A stretch of 38,063 nucleotides of DNA from a virus, in IMG/VR virus record IMGVR_UViG_3300034101_000738, positions 1 to 38,063 of that record; one strand, written 5' to 3'. Under the pieces are notes generated by a model. The model worked only from the letters and a program-made list of their open reading frames with translations, was not told the DNA's origin and did not search any database. Every line of letters starts with the position of its first letter. The first letter of the stretch is position 1. This document shows, piece after piece, positions 1 through 38,063 of this stretch. The position numbers and the translations under genes are program-made.

Positions 1-197
1 GTCGTTCCAAGCCATAGAGCCTGAACAGTCCACGACTATGACCGCGCCAAGAGCACGAGTCTTACGGGTGAAGATACGCCGCTCAGGGTCGGTGACCATA
101 CGCTCCACATAGCGTGGGTGCTTGCCCTCCGCTACACGGACGGTGCGCCTACCCATACGCCCACGATGCGTGACGTCACGCGGAGGCTTAGCCACAT
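1..197. repeat. Terminal overlap of a circular assembly, left copy
   Basis: Identical to 37867-38063 except at position 70 (g here, a at 37936). The repeat lies inside the coding sequence of the VWA protein, whose frame continues without a break from one end of the window into the other. It is therefore best read as assembly overlap of a circular or circularly permuted genome of 37,866 bp, not as a physical duplication. The single difference falls in the third base of a Phe codon (TTC versus TTT), so it is silent and may reflect strain variation. Confidence 0.95.
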
Positions 198-999
198 AGA
201 GTGGAAACCAGCCTTCGCTGAGACCCATATCGGGAACGCCAGTTGCTGGCTTATGCGTATATTCGTTGCTGCGCTTAGGCTGACCCTGTCGTGCTTTACT
301 ATTAGACTTACTGGACAACTCGTCAGAGTCTCGCTCTATGAGTCTGGCAAGGTCACGGTAACGCCTAAGCCCGTCACGTCGTTCCCAGTCACGCTTAGAG
401 TTCACACGCTCATAGCGACTGACGTGAGACCACGTAGATGGATTGTCGATGTCTACGCAATCACGGATTCTACCGCCACGGCTAGCGAACAGGGATAGGA
501 TATCCGTATCCGTGATGCCAGCCAAGACCGTGCTGAACGCTTCGGTATGAACAAGGCTGAATATCCGTGCTGCCAAGTCAGGTGAAAACGCGCCAGCATT
601 GACCATAGCCACAAGGTTAGAAACTTGTAGCGTGTCCGTAGTCGGGTCATCGGCATACACCTTGCGGAATACGCCATTGGCAACGACACGGATAGCCGCA
701 TCCAGCGAGGACTTACGCACCTTCCAACGCTTAGCGAGGGTCGTGGTCTTCGGCAGTCCGTAGCGTGAGAGCACGAGCGCATAGCGACGAAGCCTACGCC
801 CGATCTCACTCTCCGAACGCGAAGCCGCAACCTTATGCTTAGCGTCTGGCGTGGTACTGAACTCCACCGTGGTTTCGTCGTAGGACAGGCTTTCTGTCCT
901 GTGGTCGTAGGCGTTGTGCGTTCCGTGCCTTTCGCCTAGGGCTTCGGGAAGGACAGACTTGCGTCTGCCCTTCCCGACCCCTTGTGATGGGGTTCTCAT
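1..999 (-). CDS. VWA-domain (CobT-like) protein, N-terminal 333 of 458 residues; continues at 37866
   Basis: The reading frame opens with ATG at 999, five bases after the ATPase stop codon, and runs off the window start. It continues from 37866 to the stop at 37489, giving 458 residues. The first 270 residues are basic and helical-looking, with no family I recognise. The C-terminal part is a von Willebrand factor A domain with the MIDAS motif DCSGS at about residues 324-328 (position 30 and below). A MoxR-type ATPase followed by a VWA protein is a known pairing (RavA/ViaA, CobS/CobT, MoxR/VWA), in which the ATPase remodels a target that the VWA protein recruits through a bound metal. The target here is unknown. 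Calls that start near 195 or 830 miss the N-terminus. Role in the phage is inferred only. Confidence 0.85.
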   Translation of the reverse strand, partial: MRTPSQGVGKGRRKSVLPEALGERHGTHNAYDHRTESLSYDETTVEFSTTPDAKHKVAASRSESEIGRRLRRYALVLSRYGLPKTTTLAKRWKVRKSSLDAAIRVVANGVFRKVYADDPTTDTLQVSNLVAMVNAGAFSPDLAARIFSLVHTEAFSTVLAGITDTDILSLFASRGGRIRDCVDIDNPSTWSHVSRYERVNSKRDWERRDGLRRYRDLARLIERDSDELSSKSNSKARQGQPKRSNEYTHKPATGVPDMGLSEGWFPLYVAKPPRDVTHRGRMGRRTVRVAEGKHPRYVERMVTDPERRIFTRKTRALGAVIVVDCSGSMAWND

Positions 1000-1004
1000 C
1001 ATTG

Positions 1005-1706
1005 TTAGAAGCCCATTCCGACACGGAGAGCGACAGCATCGCCAAGTTCCTCGGTAAGGGTAGGCAGGCAGACCTGTACGGACTTGTCCAGATCCTCGCT
1101 CGCTTCGTAGACTCTTGCGAACTCTACGAACGACCGAAGGCTGTACCTGTCGGAGTAGTTACCGTGAGTCACCTTAGAGGCGAGGTCACGGAGATACTCA
1201 GGCAGAGAAGCGATCGCCTCAGGGTGGCTCTCGTTGATCTGAACCCTGACGACAAGCCGGTCAAGGATGGCAGGTGCCAGATCCTCAGGCTCACCGTTCA
1301 TAGTCGCAACCACCGAGAAGCCAGCGTGAGGCTTGACGATTTCGCCTGTGTATTCGTTCTGCCACTCTGACGAGTCAGAGGTGTCGATCAGAGCCATAAG
1401 CCTGCTCTCCACATCTGCGTTTACCCTGTTGATCTCGTCAACAACAAGCCGTGCGCCTTCACGCCAAGCCCTGATGCCGACACCCTCACGGAAACGCCAG
1501 ATGCCGTCGTCGCCCTGACGCATACCACCGATCAGGTCAATGTCCGTCATCTCCTGCGTACAGATAAGGCGGTAAGCCTTACTGCCGTTCAGGTGATAGT
1601 GAAGACCGTAGTAGGTCTTACCAGTACCAGGAGGACCATAGAAAAGCACCCTTCCCAGTCCGTTAGACAAGGCAAAGTCAGCCTTGTCCCATCCGTTGAG
1701 TTCCAT
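1005..1706 (-). CDS. MoxR/CobS-type AAA+ ATPase
   Basis: A 233-residue AAA+ ATPase. Walker A is GPPGTGKT at residues 24-31, Walker B is RLVVDE at 86-91, and sensor 1 is ATMN at 134-137. The segment PAILDRLVVRV after sensor 1 resembles the DRF-type region of MoxR proteins. It is short for the family (MoxR proteins usually exceed 300 residues), with little after the lid. The start ATG at 1706 follows the leader CGAAAGGA with an eight-base gap. The downstream gene begins five bases after its stop and encodes a VWA protein, the usual MoxR partner. Phage CobS-like ATPases are known, but their role is not settled. It likely acts as an ATP-driven remodelling chaperone together with the VWA protein. 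Confidence 0.9.
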   Translation of the reverse strand: MELNGWDKADFALSNGLGRVLFYGPPGTGKTYYGLHYHLNGSKAYRLICTQEMTDIDLIGGMRQGDDGIWRFREGVGIRAWREGARLVVDEINRVNADVESRLMALIDTSDSSEWQNEYTGEIVKPHAGFSVVATMNGEPEDLAPAILDRLVVRVQINESHPEAIASLPEYLRDLASKVTHGNYSDRYSLRSFVEFARVYEASEDLDKSVQVCLPTLTEELGDAVALRVGMGF

Positions 1707-4268: not shown

Positions 4269-4724
4269 TTACGTCTCGTTCTCTAAGAGAATGCTAGCGA
4301 GTTCTGCGAACTCTTCCAAGTCCATCAGAACTATTCCTCGATTTGTTCCGTCGGGCATGGCCACCATCACAAACGGACGAATGTCGCCAGACGCCCGAGC
4401 AGCGTCCGACTGTGCCTTGGCGTCGTCGAAGCGGGTGCGAATCGGACCAACCTGAGCGCCTGCCTTGATCTCGGTACGAAAAGCGCCACCCCAGTTCTCC
4501 TCGTGACGCGTAAGGTAACCACCCAACCCAAGTTTCTTACGGGCTCGACGAGCCTTAGCGTCCCCTTTCGCCCGGTTCCTTTTGCCACGAGCCGCAGGGT
4601 CACCGCAACCTCGAACGCGACGCTTACCGTCACGGCCTGGTTTTCCGAGGAGTCCAAATGCGGGGCAATGGTCCAGGTTGCATTTGTCCCTGTTTCCTTC
4701 ACAGTCACCTTTCCTTTCGTCCAT
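4269..4724 (-). CDS. Basic phage protein with possible PD-(D/E)XK (Holliday-junction-resolvase-like) core
   Basis: A 151-residue protein of a type common in actinophages. A Cys-containing N-terminus (residues 7-40) is followed by a very basic segment full of Lys and Arg, then GGYLTRHEENWGG and a segment ending RTEIKAG. The E-x-K pattern after an acidic region resembles the active site of PD-(D/E)XK nucleases such as archaeal-type Hjc, but I cannot confirm the fold by eye. ATG 4724 overlaps the upstream TAA (TAATG). Its place among recombination genes fits a DNA-processing enzyme. Treat the nuclease call as inference. Confidence 0.7.
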   Translation of the reverse strand: MDERKGDCEGNRDKCNLDHCPAFGLLGKPGRDGKRRVRGCGDPAARGKRNRAKGDAKARRARKKLGLGGYLTRHEENWGGAFRTEIKAGAQVGPIRTRFDDAKAQSDAARASGDIRPFVMVAMPDGTNRGIVLMDLEEFAELASILLENET

Positions 4725-5641
4725 TATTCAACCTGCCCGTCGAAGAGAGACTCTTGCCGGTATTCACAACTGGAGCAGAGCGGACCGCTTTTTAGATCTG
4801 CGTCCGTCAAATCCACGGCTGTGCCCCATCCCCACTTGCACAACTTGGGTGGGTGCAACCCGATGGCAGTTACCTCTTCTTCTAGTTTACGGATTTCATT
4901 GGCTACTTCCGGAAAGAACGCTTCGATTTCCTCGAACTCACCTTTGTGCGCAAACGCTCCACACAGGCATTCGCCGGACATGTGTATCAGATCGGATACC
5001 TCGTTGCGGGGCACATCACCAGCCCAATCCCGATAGGTGTTCAGGTCTGTTTTCGTCCAGTTCACCAGCGGGCTGACCCACACGACCGATCCGACACGGT
5101 TCAACTCCGGCACGTTTGTTCGCCGGGCAGACTCTGTACGTCGGCGACCGGCAAGAAACACGACGCGCTCCTGGTACGGATTGCTGATTATTCGACGCTG
5201 TGCTTGCCGCAAACAACGTTCTTTCAACCGCTGGTACATTTTCCAATGCATACCAGGACCGGGAAATCCGTCCTTCAATACGAGATCCCTGTAGGTGGAG
5301 CCTTTCGGTGGGAAAAACTCTAGTAGTGGAAGACCCCAGTTCTTGCAGGTGTCCCTAACAAACTGACGAGTCTGTTCGATTCCTATGGTTGTGTTTGCGT
5401 GCACCGCATAATCGGCGCGTTCTTTGAACATGTGCGCCATGCACGTGGAGTCATTGCCACCAGAGTAGAGGATGCAGATTCCTGCAACCTTTCGTTTTTC
5501 TCTGACCACCATTTCGTCAATGCCTTCGTCAAGTATTTGATGCGCTTCTTTCAGAAGTTCATGCATACGTTCGATGCGGAGACCCGCGTCAAGTTGCATG
5601 ACGCGAGCCTCCGGCATTGCGAGCCTGGATAGATCAACCAT
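4724..5641 (-). CDS. PAPS-reductase-family protein (DndC/CysH-like)
   Basis: A 305-residue protein with the PP-loop motif SGGNDST at residues 60-66, the ATP or PAPS-binding signature of the adenine nucleotide alpha-hydrolase fold. Cysteines near the C-terminus (GECLCG, then a lone Cys in LCKWGWG, then CSSCEYR) could bind a [4Fe-4S] cluster. The family is frequent in actinophages, and its role there is not established. Proposals include sulfur assimilation for the host and nucleic-acid modification. None of the other Dnd phosphorothioation genes is present, which argues against a complete modification pathway. ATG 5641 overlaps the upstream stop by eight bases. Confidence 0.88.
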   Translation of the reverse strand: MVDLSRLAMPEARVMQLDAGLRIERMHELLKEAHQILDEGIDEMVVREKRKVAGICILYSGGNDSTCMAHMFKERADYAVHANTTIGIEQTRQFVRDTCKNWGLPLLEFFPPKGSTYRDLVLKDGFPGPGMHWKMYQRLKERCLRQAQRRIISNPYQERVVFLAGRRRTESARRTNVPELNRVGSVVWVSPLVNWTKTDLNTYRDWAGDVPRNEVSDLIHMSGECLCGAFAHKGEFEEIEAFFPEVANEIRKLEEEVTAIGLHPPKLCKWGWGTAVDLTDADLKSGPLCSSCEYRQESLFDGQVE

Positions 5642-15775: not shown

Positions 15776-16170
15776 TTCGACTTCCTCGCCTTCTGACCCG
15801 CCTTCTTGGCGGCCGGTGTGTTCGCCACGAACTGCTTCCCAGCCCGCGACCCCTCCTGCTTCTTCTTGTTTGTCGCCGCCTTCTCCGCAGGACTCAACGA
15901 CTTCCAAGCCTTCTCCGGCAAATACCTCGTCGTGCCACCCGAACGATCCGCAGGCTTCTTGTCCGACGTCTGCCACTTCTCACCCGTCCACTTCGACAGG
16001 CTCCGCTGCGACTTCGTCTTCTCCCCCTTGTACCCGCCGCCAGCCTTCTCATACTCGGACGCCAGCAACTGCGCCTTGCGAGCAGACCACTGCCCCGGCT
16101 TGCCGCCCTTCGACCCGGCCATGATCCGGTTCTTAATCCGTTCCCGCAACGCAGGCTTCGTATATGCCAT
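15772..16170 (-). CDS. DUF5872-like basic phage protein, 132 aa
   Basis: A 132-residue protein. The segment GGKPGQWSARKAQLLASEYE near residues 22-41, followed by GGGYKGEKT, is what I remember of DUF5872, a family found in phages, bacteria and algae. The C-terminal 50 residues are rich in Ala, Lys and Arg. ATG 16170 overlaps the upstream TGA (TGATG). Strongly basic overall. Function unknown. First of a run of four basic small genes between the glycosyltransferases and the connector. Confidence 0.76.
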   Translation of the reverse strand: MAYTKPALRERIKNRIMAGSKGGKPGQWSARKAQLLASEYEKAGGGYKGEKTKSQRSLSKWTGEKWQTSDKKPADRSGGTTRYLPEKAWKSLSPAEKAATNKKKQEGSRAGKQFVANTPAAKKAGQKARKSK

Positions 16171-17258
16171 CAGGACTCCAAGTAGCCGGACTCGATGAGT
16201 ATGTCGTGAGTGTTCTCAGTCACATCGTACTCAACGCCCGGGAAGAACTCCTGCTTCTTCGTGTTCACCTCGACGACGCAGTGCTGCCGAACCCGCGCCT
16301 TGAACATGACGGCCGGAGCCACCACCTCCTTCGTCACCAGTTTCTTTCCCTCCGGCAGGGCGGACACCAGTTTCTCTGCGGCGTTCTTCCACGAGAACCG
16401 TTCCCTGACGACCTCCGCATTGTTCAACGCAAACGCCCGGGCCTGGTCACGGTTCTGATACACCCACAACATCTGGTTCGCCATGTCGTCAATGTCCGCT
16501 TCGTCCCACAGGCCGACCTCCGCCTGCACCTTCCGGGTCTCGAACACCCCGACCGCATGGTCCGCGAACTGCTCCTGACCTGACGTGTCCGTCATCAGAA
16601 CGGGGACGCCCAGCATCATGTTCTGCAACGGAATCAGACCGAACCCCTCGCCGCGCGACGGCGCGATGAAGCAGTCCGACTGGTTGTAGAAGTCCCGTTC
16701 CTGATCCATGTCCATCCAGTAGCGGATGAGACGTACGCCGGGAACGTCGACGGCCTTCGGCGTGTCCGCCGCATGTGGAGCCGCCTTTACTAGCAGTTGG
16801 GCGTCGTTCAACCCAAGACGTCTAAACGCCTCGATGGCCAGATCCAGTCCCTTCCGCTTCCACAGCGACCCGCCGCAGGTGAACGTGAACAGGTCGTTTT
16901 CGTACCGGTCGTACGGCTGCCACCATTCCGGATCCGCACCCAACGGGACATGGACCACGTTCGGATGGTGCTCCCCGAACACGGCGATGTTGTGCTCGCA
17001 GGGCACGATGATCTGGTCGTACTGGGACATCCAACGGACGAACCGGGGAGGCAGCGTGTCCGTTTCCCACATGGTGAACGCAGCCCTGTGCGCCCCCTTC
17101 AACCAGCCCTTCGACGCAAACGGGACCGACATGAGCACGTCGACCGACGCCTTCTCCGAAATCTGGACTCCGTCCGGAACTGCCGACAGGAACCCGTTCA
17201 GCATCGCCCCATAGCCAAACCGGCTGTCCGTGAACCCGTTCCAGTTCTGGAAGTTCAC
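16170..17258 (-). CDS. GT4-type glycosyltransferase
   Basis: A 362-residue GT-B fold glycosyltransferase. The C-terminal nucleotide-sugar domain has the strand TFTCGGSLWKRKGLD (residues 125-139) and the donor motif EGFGLIPLQ (204-212). In most GT4 enzymes the last position of this E-x7-E motif is Glu. Here it is Gln212, which may weaken or change donor binding. The start is GTG 17258, overlapping the upstream TGA. It may modify virion or host glycans. The pair of glycosyltransferase genes sits inside the structural operon, between capsid and tail genes. Confidence 0.87.
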   Translation of the reverse strand: MNFQNWNGFTDSRFGYGAMLNGFLSAVPDGVQISEKASVDVLMSVPFASKGWLKGAHRAAFTMWETDTLPPRFVRWMSQYDQIIVPCEHNIAVFGEHHPNVVHVPLGADPEWWQPYDRYENDLFTFTCGGSLWKRKGLDLAIEAFRRLGLNDAQLLVKAAPHAADTPKAVDVPGVRLIRYWMDMDQERDFYNQSDCFIAPSRGEGFGLIPLQNMMLGVPVLMTDTSGQEQFADHAVGVFETRKVQAEVGLWDEADIDDMANQMLWVYQNRDQARAFALNNAEVVRERFSWKNAAEKLVSALPEGKKLVTKEVVAPAVMFKARVRQHCVVEVNTKKQEFFPGVEYDVTENTHDILIESGYLES

Positions 17259-30206: not shown

Positions 30207-32846
30207 CTAGTCGATCCTGGCTTTCCTAGAGTTTTCGTCAGTAATACGCTCATTGAATCTACTGATGTTGCCCTGCAGTTTCTTCTGCTGAGCCTTCAGT
30301 TCCTTCAACCGTGCCTTGTCCGCATCGTCCAATGACTTGCCGACACCCTTCCGGGTCGTCTCACGGTTCTGAAGATTCTCGATCTCGGACTCCACGCGGT
30401 TCAATTCCTTCTGCGTGGCACGAGCATCAAGGGTATCGGCAACCGTGTCCGGGGCAGCCTTCGGCTCGCGCTTCGGTGCCGGACCCTTCTTTGCAGCAGG
30501 CTTACGACGTGCAGGAGCGGGGGTGTCGATCACTTCATAGCCACCGACCGACATGTCGTCAAACTCGATGTCGTCCATCTTCTGGCTGGCCCTACCAGTG
30601 CCGCGAGAACCGGTCTCTGCAGCACGCGTCGGGGTCTGTGGGGTTGGAGGCACGGGAGCACGCCCACCCCCCTGAGTCACAGTCCCCTTGATCTGATCGA
30701 TAAACGGCTGGTGACGCGCCATAAACGCTTCCCTCTGCGCCGTGGTAGCAGCCATATACTTGGCGACGAAGTTCGGGTCGCGCATGATCTGCTTGAACTT
30801 GTCCGGGTTCGTGAAGTTGATCTCGTCGATCGTCTGCGCAGTGCCACGGCCGCTACCGGTGTTTGCCGGTGCCGGAGTGTCCTTCGGAAGACGACGCTGA
30901 CGCGGAGGCTTAGTAACCCCAGCCGCTTTTGCAGCCTCTTCCTGATCTATCTGGAACTTGGTTTTGGCAGGCGTAATCTTCTTTGGCTTTTTCTTGCCAC
31001 CAGCAAGAATCTCGTCCGCCTGCTTTGATGCCTCAGCCTGAGCCTCGCTGCCACGCGCTAAAGCAGGTCCACGCTTGGCGGCGTAGTCGTCAAGTTCCCG
31101 GATGGCGTCTTCGGCAGTGTTGATCCTGGCCTGCACTTCCGGATTGGCAAAGTGCTCCTCAAGTTTTCCGAGAGCCTCATCAATGTTCTTTTGCGAAGGA
31201 CCCTTTGCCGGTTCTGCTGGAGGCTTCTTCTTGCGGCCAGTCTGAGGGGCGGGCTGTCCGGTTTGCTGTGCCTGAAGAGCAGCATTGTTCCGCTTGAACG
31301 TGTCCATGACAGAACCACCAGTGTCCTGAACCCATGCCGGTCCGGTCTGCGCTGAAGCGGCCTGCGCACTGTTAGCCATAGCGCGAGCATCCGCAGGAGC
31401 ATTTTTCTTCGTCTTCCTCGTGCCACCACCAGCATTACGGCCAGTTCCACGGCCGGTCTGCTGTGTGGCTGCAGGCGCAGCCGGAGCAGCCGGTGCGGCT
31501 GGTGTCTCATTTGCACGACCAGTACCGGTATTGCGTGCAGACCGGTTACGCTGCACAGCGTTCGACGCCCTTTGCTCCGGCGTCTGCGCAGCCGGGGCAG
31601 CCGGAGCGGCTGGAGGAGTTTGCGCAGCAGGGGGCTTCTTCCCACCCTTTGCTTTTGTGCCACCAGCAGCCTTACGCCCAGTACCCTTTGTCGCCGCCTT
31701 CACCTGATTGACGACAGCCTCATTTGCTTCCTGAACGACAGTCTGCGCAGCCTTCTTTGTACCCTTCTTCGCGGCAGCCTTGCCAGCAGTCGTAACCGCC
31801 GTCGTAGCCGCCGGGGCAGCCGCAGCAGCCGTCGCCCCACCAAACTGTGCAAGTTTCGGAGCAAGATCCGACATGCCAATACTAGAAGCAATCGGTGCAG
31901 CCTTACGTGCAACCGGCTTCAACACTGCGCCACCGGCACGGGCCACACCCTTTGCACCTGGAATCTTTGACGCAAGTTTGATCGCCTTGCCTGGTGCTGC
32001 TCCACCGAACAGTTCAACGGCGTTCAAAGCGGTTTCGCCAAAGCCAGCCTCACGTAGGTTCGGCTTTTCACCAAAGAACTTCTCGACCGGCTTGAAACCG
32101 CCAGGCAACTGGCTTCGGTTGAGAGCCCTGTTCACGAACGAAGCCTGGTAACTCTCCGCTGTCCTCAAATCGCTCAGGATCTTCTTTTGGATTCCGCGCT
32201 GAACCTGAGCGACACCTGGGATTTCGCTCGTCGACACGCCAAACAACTCACGCTTATTGCCCTGCTTCATTAGTTCGTCGATCGAGTTGAGGAACGCCTC
32301 AGGGTTACGGGCGCGGTTCAAAATGTCTTGCTTGCTGAAACCCATGTCGATAAGACCATCAGTCTTGTAACCCAACCTACGAAGACCTCTGGCGATCAGC
32401 GAGTTGTCCTGCTTTGGCTTCGGAGCAGTTGAAGCACTCGACGTAGTCGGCTTCTTGTTGTAGATGCTTGTCGACGGTCCGCCAGGCATCTGACTTGGAC
32501 GTGGAGCAGTGATCGGCATACCACCAGGACGATCGGTGTTACCACCGAACGGTGGCTTGGTCTGCGTGCTCGGTACGGTGGCGGACGGCTGGGCTGCACG
32601 TCCACGTGCCGCAGCAATATCAGCCTCCGTGTAAAACCCTGCGCGGGACACCTGACCGGTGTCGAACTTGCGGCGCAAAGCCGCACGGTCTACTTCCTTA
32701 CCTGCAGCCTGCAGTTCCTTGGCACGGGTCTGCACATAGAAACGCTTGCGGGCTTCCGCCTTCGATAACTGGGGGTTCGCCTGTACAAAAGCAACCCGCT
32801 CCTCAATCCGTTTCTGTTCCTCCGGTGTGCGTGTCCGCTTCGCCAT
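30207..32846 (-). CDS. Giant Ala/Pro/Lys-rich virion-associated protein, 879 aa
   Basis: An 879-residue protein. ATG 32846 is favoured over GTG 32849 because AAAGGA lies seven bases upstream. Residues 35-75 share the segment KRFYVQTRAKELQ...GKEVD with the 221-residue protein encoded at 34851-35516, and MGFSKQDILNRARNPEAF recurs there as well. The region from about 330 to 660 is low complexity, rich in Ala, Pro, Lys, Thr and Gly, with several GTGR-like motifs. The C-terminus has an Arg/Glu coiled coil. Possibly a DNA-binding internal protein or an assembly factor. It lies between the terminase and the portal. Function unknown. Confidence 0.8.
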   Translation of the reverse strand: MAKRTRTPEEQKRIEERVAFVQANPQLSKAEARKRFYVQTRAKELQAAGKEVDRAALRRKFDTGQVSRAGFYTEADIAAARGRAAQPSATVPSTQTKPPFGGNTDRPGGMPITAPRPSQMPGGPSTSIYNKKPTTSSASTAPKPKQDNSLIARGLRRLGYKTDGLIDMGFSKQDILNRARNPEAFLNSIDELMKQGNKRELFGVSTSEIPGVAQVQRGIQKKILSDLRTAESYQASFVNRALNRSQLPGGFKPVEKFFGEKPNLREAGFGETALNAVELFGGAAPGKAIKLASKIPGAKGVARAGGAVLKPVARKAAPIASSIGMSDLAPKLAQFGGATAAAAAPAATTAVTTAGKAAAKKGTKKAAQTVVQEANEAVVNQVKAATKGTGRKAAGGTKAKGGKKPPAAQTPPAAPAAPAAQTPEQRASNAVQRNRSARNTGTGRANETPAAPAAPAAPAATQQTGRGTGRNAGGGTRKTKKNAPADARAMANSAQAASAQTGPAWVQDTGGSVMDTFKRNNAALQAQQTGQPAPQTGRKKKPPAEPAKGPSQKNIDEALGKLEEHFANPEVQARINTAEDAIRELDDYAAKRGPALARGSEAQAEASKQADEILAGGKKKPKKITPAKTKFQIDQEEAAKAAGVTKPPRQRRLPKDTPAPANTGSGRGTAQTIDEINFTNPDKFKQIMRDPNFVAKYMAATTAQREAFMARHQPFIDQIKGTVTQGGGRAPVPPTPQTPTRAAETGSRGTGRASQKMDDIEFDDMSVGGYEVIDTPAPARRKPAAKKGPAPKREPKAAPDTVADTLDARATQKELNRVESEIENLQNRETTRKGVGKSLDDADKARLKELKAQQKKLQGNISRFNERITDENSRKARID

Positions 32847-32882
32847 CACCGATCCTTTGTGCCGTGCACTGAAAATATCACA

Positions 32883-34847
32883 TCAGGCACTTATCCAGGT
32901 TGGTCTCCACTGTCTTTTCGGCATTGAGAACGGACGCATCTGCGGCATATGCAGTTCAGCAAACCAGTGGGCCATCACCAGGTCGGTTCCATTCTTCTTG
33001 TTCCGGGTCCACGTGGTCATCTCGTCGAGGAACGCCATCGTCTTCCAGTTGTCCCTCAACTCGGGCAGCCGAACCTGACCGGTGCGCCACAACGGCGGCA
33101 ACAGAGCCTCGATACCGAGGTTCTCATCCAACTTGTTCCGACCAGTCGTGTGGGGTGTGACGTTCGTCCCCCACTTGGCCTGCCATTTGCGGACAAAGTC
33201 GTGGGCAAGGAGGAACCTTTGGGCGGCGTTCACCTCGACGATCCAGTTCGTGATCGGATAGCCCAGTTCCCAGGAGCGTTCCTGCCATTGCTCCATGAAA
33301 CCCCAATATGAGCGGGTGCCGGTGTCGTAGCCGAGAAGTTCCTCGGCGGTCAACTTGACCCGTTCAATGTCGACCAGATATCGGAGGTTTGTTTCAGGCT
33401 GGTACAGCCACCATTGCAACGCCCAAAACATTGTTGGCGACGGGTCAACCGTCGCAATCGAGATTACGGGTTGCGCGAGGCTCGACGGAACATAGCCAGG
33501 ACGACGATGCTGGTCAATGCAACCAGGGTAGAGAACACCGTCAGGGCCCATGCCGCCAGTGGCCCAGACTCTTTCAATAAGGTAATGGCCTTCCGCCATG
33601 TTCTCTTGCTGGTAGACGATTTGGAACTTGGACGGCGAGTTGTACCGGATGTAGGAAAGGTCTTTCCACGATAGACGGAACGGCTCCAGTAGGGGCCCGT
33701 CTGGCCAGGCTGCTGCATCCAGTCTTTTGGATTTTGGGCCATCGTCCAACTCCTCGTAATATGCCTTGTACACCAGATGGTGGTATTTGCTTTGCTTGAC
33801 CGGTTCAACCGTGTCTTCTGTTGAGGTTACGTCCTCACCGTCGTAGTCGTCAACCTGTTCATAGGTGACCTTTGACAGGCAATGGGCATACAGGTCTTGT
33901 GGTCCGAGGCGCTGCCCGATGACAGATAGCAGGCCGCCCGGGTCGACGCGGGCTTCAGCCATCGAGTCCCACCGTTCAATCAACTTGTCGCGGGCCACCG
34001 ATTCTTTCGCGTTTTCCGGGGAGGCGACGTCGTCGAAGAGGCATAGGTCGGCGCGATGGCCGATGAACTCGGACTCGATGCCATAGGCGGACACGGTTGG
34101 TTCCTTGTTGTCCAATCCGCCAATGTTGTTCTGTTCGACGATGAACTCTTCGGCACGCCACAACGCTCCGACGAAGTTCGGTTTGAACCTTCCGTAGTCG
34201 ACGGACAGGCAGGCTTCCGCGTTGATGGCCAGTCCACGGGCAATCATCTCAGGATCCGGGTGCAGGGGAACGGTCCGTTCGAGGGTGTCGCGGATACGGC
34301 GCGAATACATCTTGGCGAGGGTCTGGCTGATAGAGCCGATCATCACGCGGATCTGCCGGTTCCTGACGATGCACCAGACAGCGACGTCGTGGAACAGGGT
34401 GGACTTCCCTGCACCTGGCGGACAGTTCAGAACGAGGAACTGCTTTTCAGGATGCTCCAAGTAGGAGACGATTTTGTATGCGGCGTCAACCTGCCATGGG
34501 GATGGGACACGTCCAAGGTAGACGCGGCGGAAGTAGTCGAAGTCTTGAAGACCGCGCTTGGCGCGGTCTGAAAGACGGCCAGTTGGTATTACGGGGGGTA
34601 GGTCTGGCATGATGGCAATGTCGCGTGCCACCTTTGCTGTGGAACCACCCCCAGCCTTCTTGCCGGTGAGGAGGCGTGCCTGTTCAATCTCGGCGTTGGT
34701 CTGGTCTGCTTTGCCGCGCCATTTGATTGCAGTGTTGTAGGAAACCCCTGCCATCCGTGCAGCCTCTTTTAGAGAGGTGCCAGATTGAAGAGCCTGCCAG
34801 AAGAGGGCCCGATCTTCTGCGGAGATCGTCCTCCTACCCTGAGACAT
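32883..34847 (-). CDS. Terminase large subunit with N-terminal helix-turn-helix
   Basis: A 654-residue packaging motor. Residues 7-60 hold a helix-turn-helix (GTSLKEAARMAGVSYNTAIKW), the DNA-binding part usually found in the small terminase. The ATPase has Walker A CPPGAGKST (142-150) and Walker B LCLFDD (268-273). The nuclease has VDPSPT with Asp468, and later acidic residues near EVNAAQRF and TDLVMAHW. No separate small terminase gene is obvious nearby, so the fusion may replace it. ATG 34847 follows the upstream stop after three bases. Confidence 0.9.
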   Translation of the reverse strand: MSQGRRTISAEDRALFWQALQSGTSLKEAARMAGVSYNTAIKWRGKADQTNAEIEQARLLTGKKAGGGSTAKVARDIAIMPDLPPVIPTGRLSDRAKRGLQDFDYFRRVYLGRVPSPWQVDAAYKIVSYLEHPEKQFLVLNCPPGAGKSTLFHDVAVWCIVRNRQIRVMIGSISQTLAKMYSRRIRDTLERTVPLHPDPEMIARGLAINAEACLSVDYGRFKPNFVGALWRAEEFIVEQNNIGGLDNKEPTVSAYGIESEFIGHRADLCLFDDVASPENAKESVARDKLIERWDSMAEARVDPGGLLSVIGQRLGPQDLYAHCLSKVTYEQVDDYDGEDVTSTEDTVEPVKQSKYHHLVYKAYYEELDDGPKSKRLDAAAWPDGPLLEPFRLSWKDLSYIRYNSPSKFQIVYQQENMAEGHYLIERVWATGGMGPDGVLYPGCIDQHRRPGYVPSSLAQPVISIATVDPSPTMFWALQWWLYQPETNLRYLVDIERVKLTAEELLGYDTGTRSYWGFMEQWQERSWELGYPITNWIVEVNAAQRFLLAHDFVRKWQAKWGTNVTPHTTGRNKLDENLGIEALLPPLWRTGQVRLPELRDNWKTMAFLDEMTTWTRNKKNGTDLVMAHWFAELHMPQMRPFSMPKRQWRPTWISA

Positions 34848-34850
34848 TGG

Positions 34851-35516
34851 TTACTTGCGGAACCCCGCAGGTGTCGAATACTTCATGACGTCCTTAGCGG
34901 AGAACCCCATCTTCTCCAGGTACTTGCGACGCTTGTCAGCGGTGTTAGCCACCTGCTGGTTCCCACCCTTGAATGGGAACGTCTTATCCAGGTATGCGCC
35001 AATGCTGACGTTCGACGACGCCGGACCACCAGGCATCTGCGTCGGCTTCAACGCCCGACCCGGCATCCCGCCAGGACCCTCAGGTCCCTTACGCTTCGGA
35101 CCCATAGGACCAGCCTTCGGCTTCGTATACGACTTTGTCTCAGGACCGGTCCGCGACGACATCGGCTTCAACTGAGGCTTCGTATAGGAAGCAGACTCAG
35201 GACCCATACGGTCAGGCTTCTTATACGTTGACGACGTCTCCGGACCAGTCCGCTTAGGACCCTGCACCGTTGGCTTCTTAGGAGCCGCCTTTCCCGGAGC
35301 GCCGAACTCGGCACGCTTCACCTTCCCCGAATCCCAGTTCGACCGAAGTTGAGCACGCACCTCTGGCGTCACCGGCTTCCCCGCCTTCTGCAACTCGGCA
35401 ACCCGGGTCTGCACATAAAACCGCTTCAACGCGACGTCACGAGCCACCCCCTTAGCCGTCTGCTCCTTCACGAACTTCTTACGGGCCGCCTCCAAGCCAC
35501 CCTGCATCTGTGCCAT
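34851..35516 (-). CDS. Disordered protein related to the 879-aa protein; possible packaging partner
   Basis: A 221-residue protein. Residues 29-70 contain KRFYVQTRVAELQKAGKPVT, nearly the same as the N-terminus of the 879-residue protein. The C-terminus MGFSAKDVMKYSTPAGF matches MGFSKQDILNRARNPEAF there. Between them lies a Pro/Gly/Lys-rich linker with three copies of a GPE-x-x-SYTKP-like unit. It is like a short version of the larger protein with its middle removed. Located directly before the terminase, where small terminases usually sit. ATG 35516 has only a weak ribosome site. Function unknown. Confidence 0.75.
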   Translation of the reverse strand: MAQMQGGLEAARKKFVKEQTAKGVARDVALKRFYVQTRVAELQKAGKPVTPEVRAQLRSNWDSGKVKRAEFGAPGKAAPKKPTVQGPKRTGPETSSTYKKPDRMGPESASYTKPQLKPMSSRTGPETKSYTKPKAGPMGPKRKGPEGPGGMPGRALKPTQMPGGPASSNVSIGAYLDKTFPFKGGNQQVANTADKRRKYLEKMGFSAKDVMKYSTPAGFRK

Positions 35517-36712: not shown

Positions 36713-36787
36713 CTAGTGTCGCTCTAAGCGAGCGAGTATTATTAGCACTAGTAACCAGACCCCGATAGCACTCAGGGTCTCGCGCAT
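36713..36787 (-). CDS. Single-span membrane microprotein, 24 aa
   Basis: Read by hand. ATG 36787 overlaps the TAA of the acidic protein gene (TAATG). The 24-residue product has MRETLSAIG, then a hydrophobic run VWLLVLIILA, and an ending RLERH, so one short membrane helix flanked by Arg residues. It is the last gene before the terminator of the accessory unit. A coding role is supported by the stop/start overlap and the hydrophobic pattern, as for the 30- and 33-residue microproteins. Confidence 0.55.
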   Translation of the reverse strand: MRETLSAIGVWLLVLIILARLERH

Positions 36788-37485
36788 TAGTTGTCGTCGT
36801 CCTCCTGATCGTTACGCATTACGTGGTCACGGATATTGGAGTTTGCTTCCATTGCCATAAGGCTGAACGTCCGTGGGAAGGTGGCACGCAACTGCTTAGG
36901 GGTAACGAACCCCGTAATACTGTTGCGGGCTGCCCTGCTCTCAGCGTCAGTCAGGTCGTTTGGTATGACGATACGGTGGTTGTCCTCCCATTCGCACCAA
37001 AAGGTTTGGAAGTCTCCGTCCCTTTCGTTACGGCAGAACAGTACGCCACCTGATGCGATGTATACGCTGAAAGTGCCGTAGTCCTGTTGTGTGCGTACTA
37101 CCCACATAACCGGATCCATAGCATCTTCCATAGCAATAGTGGCGTTCAGGTCTACGAGAGCCGGAATGAACTTGTCGTAGTCATCCGTACCCATAGCCCG
37201 CTGTACCGCTAAGCGTGCGATGTCGCTTTGATCTTCCAAGTCCCGAAGGTTGGAAGGGTCAAGGGTAATCGCGTCAGGATCAGCCTCCATATCTTTTGGA
37301 GCGATCGTCGCTACGAACAGTTCGTTGTCACGCTTACCGTTCTCAGCCTCATCGTCAGACCAAGCACTTTCGCAGGTCCTAGCCATAACGATTATGGCTT
37401 CCTCTTGGTCTGTGGCTAGGGCTGATTTAGCCCCATCCATAATGCGACGAACCTCAGCGAAGAGGTCGTCATTGTTGTCGTCCAT
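36787..37485 (-). CDS. Acidic protein of unknown function, 232 aa, partner of the ATPase/VWA genes
   Basis: A 232-residue protein, strongly acidic at both ends (MDDNNDDLF start, DQEDDDN end). It has a central domain with DPVMWVVRTQQDYGTFSVYI and GVLFCRNERDGD that alternates strand and helix, and a segment CEWEDNHRIVIPND. No membrane span, no motif recognised. ATG 37485 has a good ribosome site (AAGGAAAGG) and lies three bases after the VWA gene stop, so it is expressed with the ATPase and VWA protein and may be their substrate, adaptor or inhibitor. This is an inference from gene order only. Confidence 0.72.
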   Translation of the reverse strand: MDDNNDDLFAEVRRIMDGAKSALATDQEEAIIVMARTCESAWSDDEAENGKRDNELFVATIAPKDMEADPDAITLDPSNLRDLEDQSDIARLAVQRAMGTDDYDKFIPALVDLNATIAMEDAMDPVMWVVRTQQDYGTFSVYIASGGVLFCRNERDGDFQTFWCEWEDNHRIVIPNDLTDAESRAARNSITGFVTPKQLRATFPRTFSLMAMEANSNIRDHVMRNDQEDDDN

Positions 37486-37488
37486 TAC

Positions 37489-38063
37489 CTATGCCTTTCC
37501 TTGTAGGTGAGCCAAGATCCGCTTGGCTTGACGGGTGTTCTCTACTACGTGAATGCCATAGCGTCGTACTAGGGCATCTGTTTCTTTACGAAGGGCTGGC
37601 GAGTAGGCGTCAGCCTTACCCGTAACCCTTTGATCCGACACCCATACGACTGGGTGTGCGGAACCTTGCCGAAGGACACGCACCGCATAGGCAAGTGCTG
37701 GTCCATCGCAACCATTACCGCCAGGGAAATCAGGCAAATGCCTTACTCTGGCGTTGTTCTTAGCGACGATCCACGCGTTAGGGTGATCTGCGTCTACCGT
37801 ATAGCCACTGGAATAGCACAGTACCGTTGCGCCAGCCGTAAGGTCGATCACCTCGGCAAGGTCAGCGTCGTTCCAAGCCATAGAGCCTGAACAGTCCACG
37901 ACTATGACCGCGCCAAGAGCACGAGTCTTACGGGTAAAGATACGCCGCTCAGGGTCGGTGACCATACGCTCCACATAGCGTGGGTGCTTGCCCTCCGCTA
38001 CACGGACGGTGCGCCTACCCATACGCCCACGATGCGTGACGTCACGCGGAGGCTTAGCCACAT
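37489..38063 (-). CDS. VWA-domain (CobT-like) protein, C-terminal part; same gene as 1-999
   Basis: C-terminal part of the 458-residue protein, including the bases repeated at the window start. The GTG at 38061 is an internal Val codon (residue 269), not a start. The domain includes IVVDCSGSM with the MIDAS pattern D-x-S-x-S, later GGNGCDGPAL near residues 381-390, and WVSDQRVTG, which fit the VWA fold. It ends at the TAG at 37489, and the acidic protein gene starts three bases on. Count it as one gene with the feature at 1-999. Confidence 0.85.
   Translation of the reverse strand, partial: VAKPPRDVTHRGRMGRRTVRVAEGKHPRYVERMVTDPERRIFTRKTRALGAVIVVDCSGSMAWNDADLAEVIDLTAGATVLCYSSGYTVDADHPNAWIVAKNNARVRHLPDFPGGNGCDGPALAYAVRVLRQGSAHPVVWVSDQRVTGKADAYSPALRKETDALVRRYGIHVVENTRQAKRILAHLQGKA
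37867..38063. repeat. Terminal overlap of a circular assembly, right copy
   Basis: Copy of bases 1-197 with one silent difference (37936 a versus 70 g). Remove one copy to obtain the unit of 37,866 bp. Confidence 0.95.

Follow-up and report, generated by a model that had tools for sequence, protein, structure and literature searches.

A MoxR-VWA gene pair with a constant acidic companion in a lineage of small phages

The window analysed here, the whole 38,063-nt IMG/VR virus record IMGVR_UViG_3300034101_000738, is a phage genome in which terminase, portal and capsid genes were found. A direct repeat lies at its two ends (1..197 and 37867..38063, no strand assigned). Because the contig ends share these 197 b, with one mismatch, we took the map as circular, with a length of 37,866 b. 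On the minus strand, the genes run in the order MoxR, VWA, an acidic protein that we call ACID and a membrane micropeptide, followed later by a basic 221-aa gene, the terminase gene, a basic 880-aa gene and the portal gene. The window also carries a WhiB gene (Pfam, 1.2e-19), a marker that has been used to point to actinobacterial hosts for freshwater actinophages (PMC6802176); an actinobacterial host is therefore indicated, and the group probably consists of small phages of freshwater actinobacteria. The cultivated Planktophila phage F5 was considered as a carrier of the module, and all module genes were absent from it. Elsewhere in the window we noted a PAPS-reductase-like gene (4724-5641), with no relative in 25 compared genomes, and a glycosyltransferase gene (16170-17258) that matches Pfam GT4-conflict.

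The first gene of the block (1005..1706, minus strand) encodes a MoxR/CobS-type AAA+ ATPase of 233 aa, identified by Pfam, PHROG, motif and PDB profile matches. Its score against Pfam AAA_5 was 60.4 bits (2.4e-16; cut-off 22), which places it among the MoxR AAA+ proteins, and it matched PHROG 16448 at 1.8e-56; the nearest solved structures by PDB profile were Midasin, NorQ and CbbQ. The bpMoxR model gave 13 bits on the window proteins, below its cut-off of 27. An earlier note on this DNA had described complete Walker A, Walker B and sensor 1 motifs, and all three were present: Walker A GPPGTGKT at 1637-1614, Walker B LVVDEIN at about 1451-1428 and the sensor-1 residue Asn137, within VVATMN, at 1298-1296. 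The three motifs were essentially invariant across 16 relatives.

The VWA gene starts with an ATG at 1002, 2 b past the MoxR stop; the five-base spacing noted earlier applies if the second ATG is used. Since the 197-b repeat joins the ends, the gene leaves the window at its start and resumes at 37866-37489. Rebuilt across the repeat, the complete protein has 459 aa, so that the gene as first described is present but its coordinates covered only the first 334 residues. Residues 1-334 (1..1002, minus strand) hold the N-terminal helical domain, a degenerate metallopeptidase-like region, and the start of the VWA domain with the MIDAS motif DCSGS (30-16). Residues 335-459 (37489..37866, minus strand) hold MIDAS residues Asn385 (37716-37714) and Asp412 (37635-37633). 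The MIDAS had been called full; DxSxS and the final Asp do not vary, but Asn stands at the Thr position, and judged from its residues the site is a variant form with an incomplete DxSxS-T-D set. The protein matched PHROG 33218 (1.9e-121), and no Pfam VWA or CobT family matched it by sequence. We modelled the VWA protein of the relative L005 as a contiguous stand-in for the split window gene (pLDDT 91.5). The top PDB match of this model was the NorQ-bound NorD VWA domain (probability 0.99, with an E-value of only 0.011), in agreement with a VWA fold.

ACID, the acidic 232-residue protein reported after VWA, is present at 36787..37485 (minus strand), with a net charge of -27 and a pI of 4.2. It had no match in Pfam or PHROG. 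Single-sequence searches gave no relatives for either VWA or ACID, and relatives of ACID were identified by gene position and profiles. The AlphaFold2 model of ACID (pLDDT 90.6, pTM 0.83) begins with a long helix at the N terminus, continues into a core rich in strands and closes with two helices at the C terminus. Compared with the PDB, this model gave no significant fold match, a result on which a sliding-clamp fold and a YbjN/CesT-like fold were both rejected, and the predicted fold is apparently new. Two unnamed viral proteins in BFVD matched the model (E about 7e-9) and probably belong to ACID's own family. Profile comparison linked ACID to UP1, an acidic protein usually encoded about 1 kb upstream of MoxR (hhalign 98.6%, E 1.4e-15), and UP1 to UP2 (97.8%). 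The ACID and UP2 profiles failed to match each other, giving no support for direct homology between them. UP2 is found in larger phages as well: of 15 large contigs with UP2, 11 carry VWA elsewhere on the contig; a link of UP2 to PPA1309 rested on a single weak match (5e-4) and was dropped, the PPA1309 family being absent from three genomes tested. The window has ACID only, without UP1 or UP2. By these profile relationships, ACID is a member of an undescribed paralogous family, the new third family of the pair.

The ATG of the 24-residue membrane peptide that had been placed last in the set overlaps the ACID stop (36713..36787, minus strand; single-span, MRETLSAIGVWLLVLIILARLERH). A single- or double-span membrane mini-ORF followed ACID in 31 of 39 distinct loci. 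The corresponding frequencies in controls were 6.8% for random windows, 12% for the ends of other genes and 2/38 downstream of VWA, and this enrichment supports counting the micropeptide as part of the set. In one sub-branch (L007, L020, L031), MoxR and VWA are separated by an inserted ORF of 63 aa that encodes a hydrophobic span, another membrane peptide within the block.

Co-occurrence and gene order were then checked in relatives, as had been proposed. Searches with MoxR gave 35 loci and profile searches added many more; identical VWA proteins were removed, leaving 47 distinct proteins of the window type (clade A) and 38 of clade B. In clade A, MoxR preceded VWA in 44/44 loci with room and ACID followed in 38/38 with room, with usual spacers of -4 to +5 b within the block. 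Relatives that keep the ATPase but routinely lack VWA and ACID were therefore not seen in the window branch, and the loci without VWA in the MoxR survey were contigs ending shortly past MoxR. In clade B, MoxR lay beside VWA in 36 of 37 loci, whereas ACID occurred in none of the 34 with room. The results confirmed the MoxR/VWA pair and make ACID its constant companion and natural candidate for a third component in clade A, although not of every viral pair. Identity to the window was 73-82% for terminase, 56-71% for MoxR, 35-44% for VWA and 17-27% for ACID. For most pairs with enough changes, dN/dS was about 0.03-0.32; in a few near-identical pairs it was higher or undefined. The block is thus more than a chance arrangement, since order and family are kept across dozens of contigs under such dN/dS values. 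In L315, VWA lies in two ORFs while ACID, UP1 and MoxR are intact, which reflects a sequencing error or decay.

The two clades align over 430 columns (probability 100, E 6e-74), with clade-B IRAHEMxHAKVSP opposite clade-A LRRYxLxLSRYxLP and the EExRVN region altered too. HExxH was found in 0/47 clade-A versus 30/38 clade-B VWA proteins, and intermediate lineages have already lost it and have no ACID either. By this alignment, the VWA protein of the window branch has lost the metallopeptidase HExxH kept by its distant relatives. Chromosomal clade-B MoxR-VWA pairs with HExxH also occur in Acidimicrobiia/Actinomycetes MAGs (L117, L118, L119, L122). At the right end of the clade-B phage loci L083 and L099, ORFs beginning MTTIVGIQGDGFAV resemble proteasome-type hydrolases (by eye only).

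The module lies in line with, and just upstream of, the terminase large subunit gene (32883..34847, minus strand; PHROG 38, 1.6e-64), which we used as a lineage marker. Among 80 terminase relatives, 50 contigs had room, and MoxR-VWA was present in 22 and absent from 28. All 21 contigs with at least 73% terminase identity carried the pair, and below this value only L345 of 29 did. The module is therefore fixed in one terminase lineage and absent from its sister, and the description of it as accessory does not hold for the lineage of the window. In a comparison of 15 module-plus with 11 module-minus genomes, the two groups had most of their remaining genes in common, portal and capsid among them.

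Besides the module genes, the main family tracking the ACID branch was that of a large basic protein whose gene separates terminase from portal. In the window this is a basic low-complexity protein of 880 aa (30207..32849, minus strand; net +62) and the candidate client of the module. Its N-terminal ARKRFYVQTR motif recurs in the basic 221-aa protein (net +30) encoded upstream of terminase (34851..35516, minus strand), a possible second client. The 880-aa family was found in 10/15 module-plus and 0/11 module-minus genomes. Three of the five module-plus genomes lacking it have no ACID; in G025 a divergent protein of 453 aa and similar style takes its place, and G028 has a broken reading frame. 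Across about 80 contigs, the terminase-portal gap measured 1.2-4.8 kb in every ACID-bearing phage and 14-824 b in phages shown to be ACID-free. The gap proteins are basic and of low complexity (359-1583 aa), share a conserved N-terminal ARKRFYVQTR domain and match no database family; the L285 insert is not basic (net -2), and small FYVQTR-like proteins occur without ACID (L327, L345). On the terminase tree, ACID and the large insert each show a single change, and both changes fall on one branch; the link is thus unreplicated, and independent co-variation of the two was rejected. Their shared single origin is no more than suggestive of the 880-aa protein as client.

The block falls among the viral MoxR-vWA ('cobST') pairs already described, as a distinct form with a new third family. 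Pairs in cyanophages, archaeal tailed viruses and group 2.2 jumbo phages have the same adjacent genes, but the window branch lacks HExxH and adds ACID, UP1 and the membrane micropeptide. The jumbo-phage type, proposed to act in virion assembly (PMC7824862), has an N-terminal HExxH on its VWA protein, and clade B resembles these pairs in architecture (PMC7824862). Acidianus two-tailed virus encodes a p618/p892 pair whose ATPase is stimulated by p387 (PMC4124505). It likewise combines a virus-encoded MoxR, a VWA protein and a third protein, with a role in virion tail development, although it belongs to a different virus class and the third components are likened by role. Bacterial MoxR-vWA ternary conflict systems (VMAP, iSTAND, FtsH, beta-propeller) also pair MoxR and VWA with a dedicated third protein; unlike these, the window has no VMAP match and no effector domains fused to VWA. 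NorQ/NorD, which matures nitric oxide reductase, shares by architecture the MoxR ring and a VWA protein with an N-terminal domain, but the window set lacks the reductase target and has Asn for Thr in the MIDAS.

We consider the chance about even that the block encodes a single ATP-driven remodelling machine of the MoxR/VWA kind, with ACID as adaptor and a phage protein as substrate; ring assembly, contacts, adaptor role, client and timing are what we infer for it. MoxR would form a hexameric ring, and VWA would plug into this ring and bind its partner via the MIDAS metal and the N-terminal domain, a former metallopeptidase domain whose catalytic motif is gone. In NorQD structures, a VWA finger lies in the MoxR pore and the VWA domain rotates relative to the N-terminal domain (PMC13036017). 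In NorQD, acidic residues in the target are believed to be ligands of the MIDAS, whose own residues are needed for the target yet dispensable for ATPase binding (PMC9976466). Such binding suits ACID as the acidic MIDAS ligand by analogy: ACID (UP1/UP2 in relatives) would serve as a dedicated adaptor, presenting acidic residues to the metal of the MIDAS and keeping hold of the substrate, and the micropeptide may anchor the whole set at the membrane. The Asn in place of Thr counts against this machine, because a Thr-to-Val change in the NorD MIDAS abolished activity (PMC9976466). The substrate would most likely come from the phage itself and act in packaging or virion assembly, and the strongest candidate is the large basic gap protein; the charge contrast between ACID (-27) and the 880-aa protein (+62) fits such a relation without proving it.

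Other roles were weighed against the same evidence. The motor could remodel a host complex or disarm a defence, with ACID as the fast-evolving host-facing part. Host-facing proteins often diverge fast, and ACID diverges much faster than MoxR and terminase; bacterial conflict loci also hold MoxR-vWA ternary systems (PMC7159879). We nevertheless regard this role as unlikely: positive selection was not seen in most pairs, the module is fixed within its lineage rather than patchy, and the action against host defence suggested earlier found no PADLOC match for MoxR, VWA, ACID or the window proteins at large and no other positive evidence. It is rather unlikely, too, that MoxR-VWA is functional while ACID, UP1/UP2 and the micropeptide are mere neighbours kept by synteny. 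These phages are broadly syntenic and clade B lacks ACID, but ACID stays beside VWA though small ORFs have been inserted elsewhere in the block, its paralogues flank the pair as well, and UP2 accompanies MoxR-VWA into other, larger phages.

The motor might instead load or remodel a replication or recombination protein. A homologous pair in cyanophage S-SM2 lies amid gp46, gp45, gp44 and gp62, and chromosomal Acidimicrobiia copies lie near nrdR (L117, L119, L122); since the cyanophage homologues stand among replication genes, another role fits there. The gene neighbourhood differs in the window branch, and the module-free sister phages share the RecE/YqaJ-like, RecT-like and exonuclease genes, making this role quite improbable for the window. 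Very improbable is a CobS/CobT-like helper that uses host CobN for cobalamin supply, a role proposed for viral cobST (PMC8651126) and echoed by a PHROG 249 'porphyrin biosynthesis' match (2.4e-16). The Cob-chelatase model reached 22.7 bits, below its cut-off of 779, VWA matched neither CobT nor a VWA Pfam family, no cobalamin-related gene was recognised among the scanned window proteins, and that pathway has no place for ACID or the micropeptide. Positive evidence for a cobalamin role was not seen.

Packaging or virion remodelling is the best-supported reading of function. We put forward a fuller version of it only tentatively and hold it to be clearly less likely than not: MoxR-VWA and new-fold acidic adaptors would act as a packaging or virion chaperone for a very large, disordered, basic KRFYVQTR-tagged protein, keeping it off DNA or loading it into the capsid while held at the membrane by the micropeptide, and the adaptor family and its client would have arisen together after the peptidase motif was lost.

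MoxR-VWA pairs occur widely among tailed viruses, and two incompatible functions have been proposed for them, cobalamin supply and virion assembly; in the literature on viral MoxR-VWA that we consulted for both, we found no test in a tailed phage. ACID adds a protein family without a match among solved structures. The phages described here combine a constant third family with a micropeptide, a candidate client, small genomes and close sisters free of the module, and so make the function of viral MoxR-VWA directly testable.
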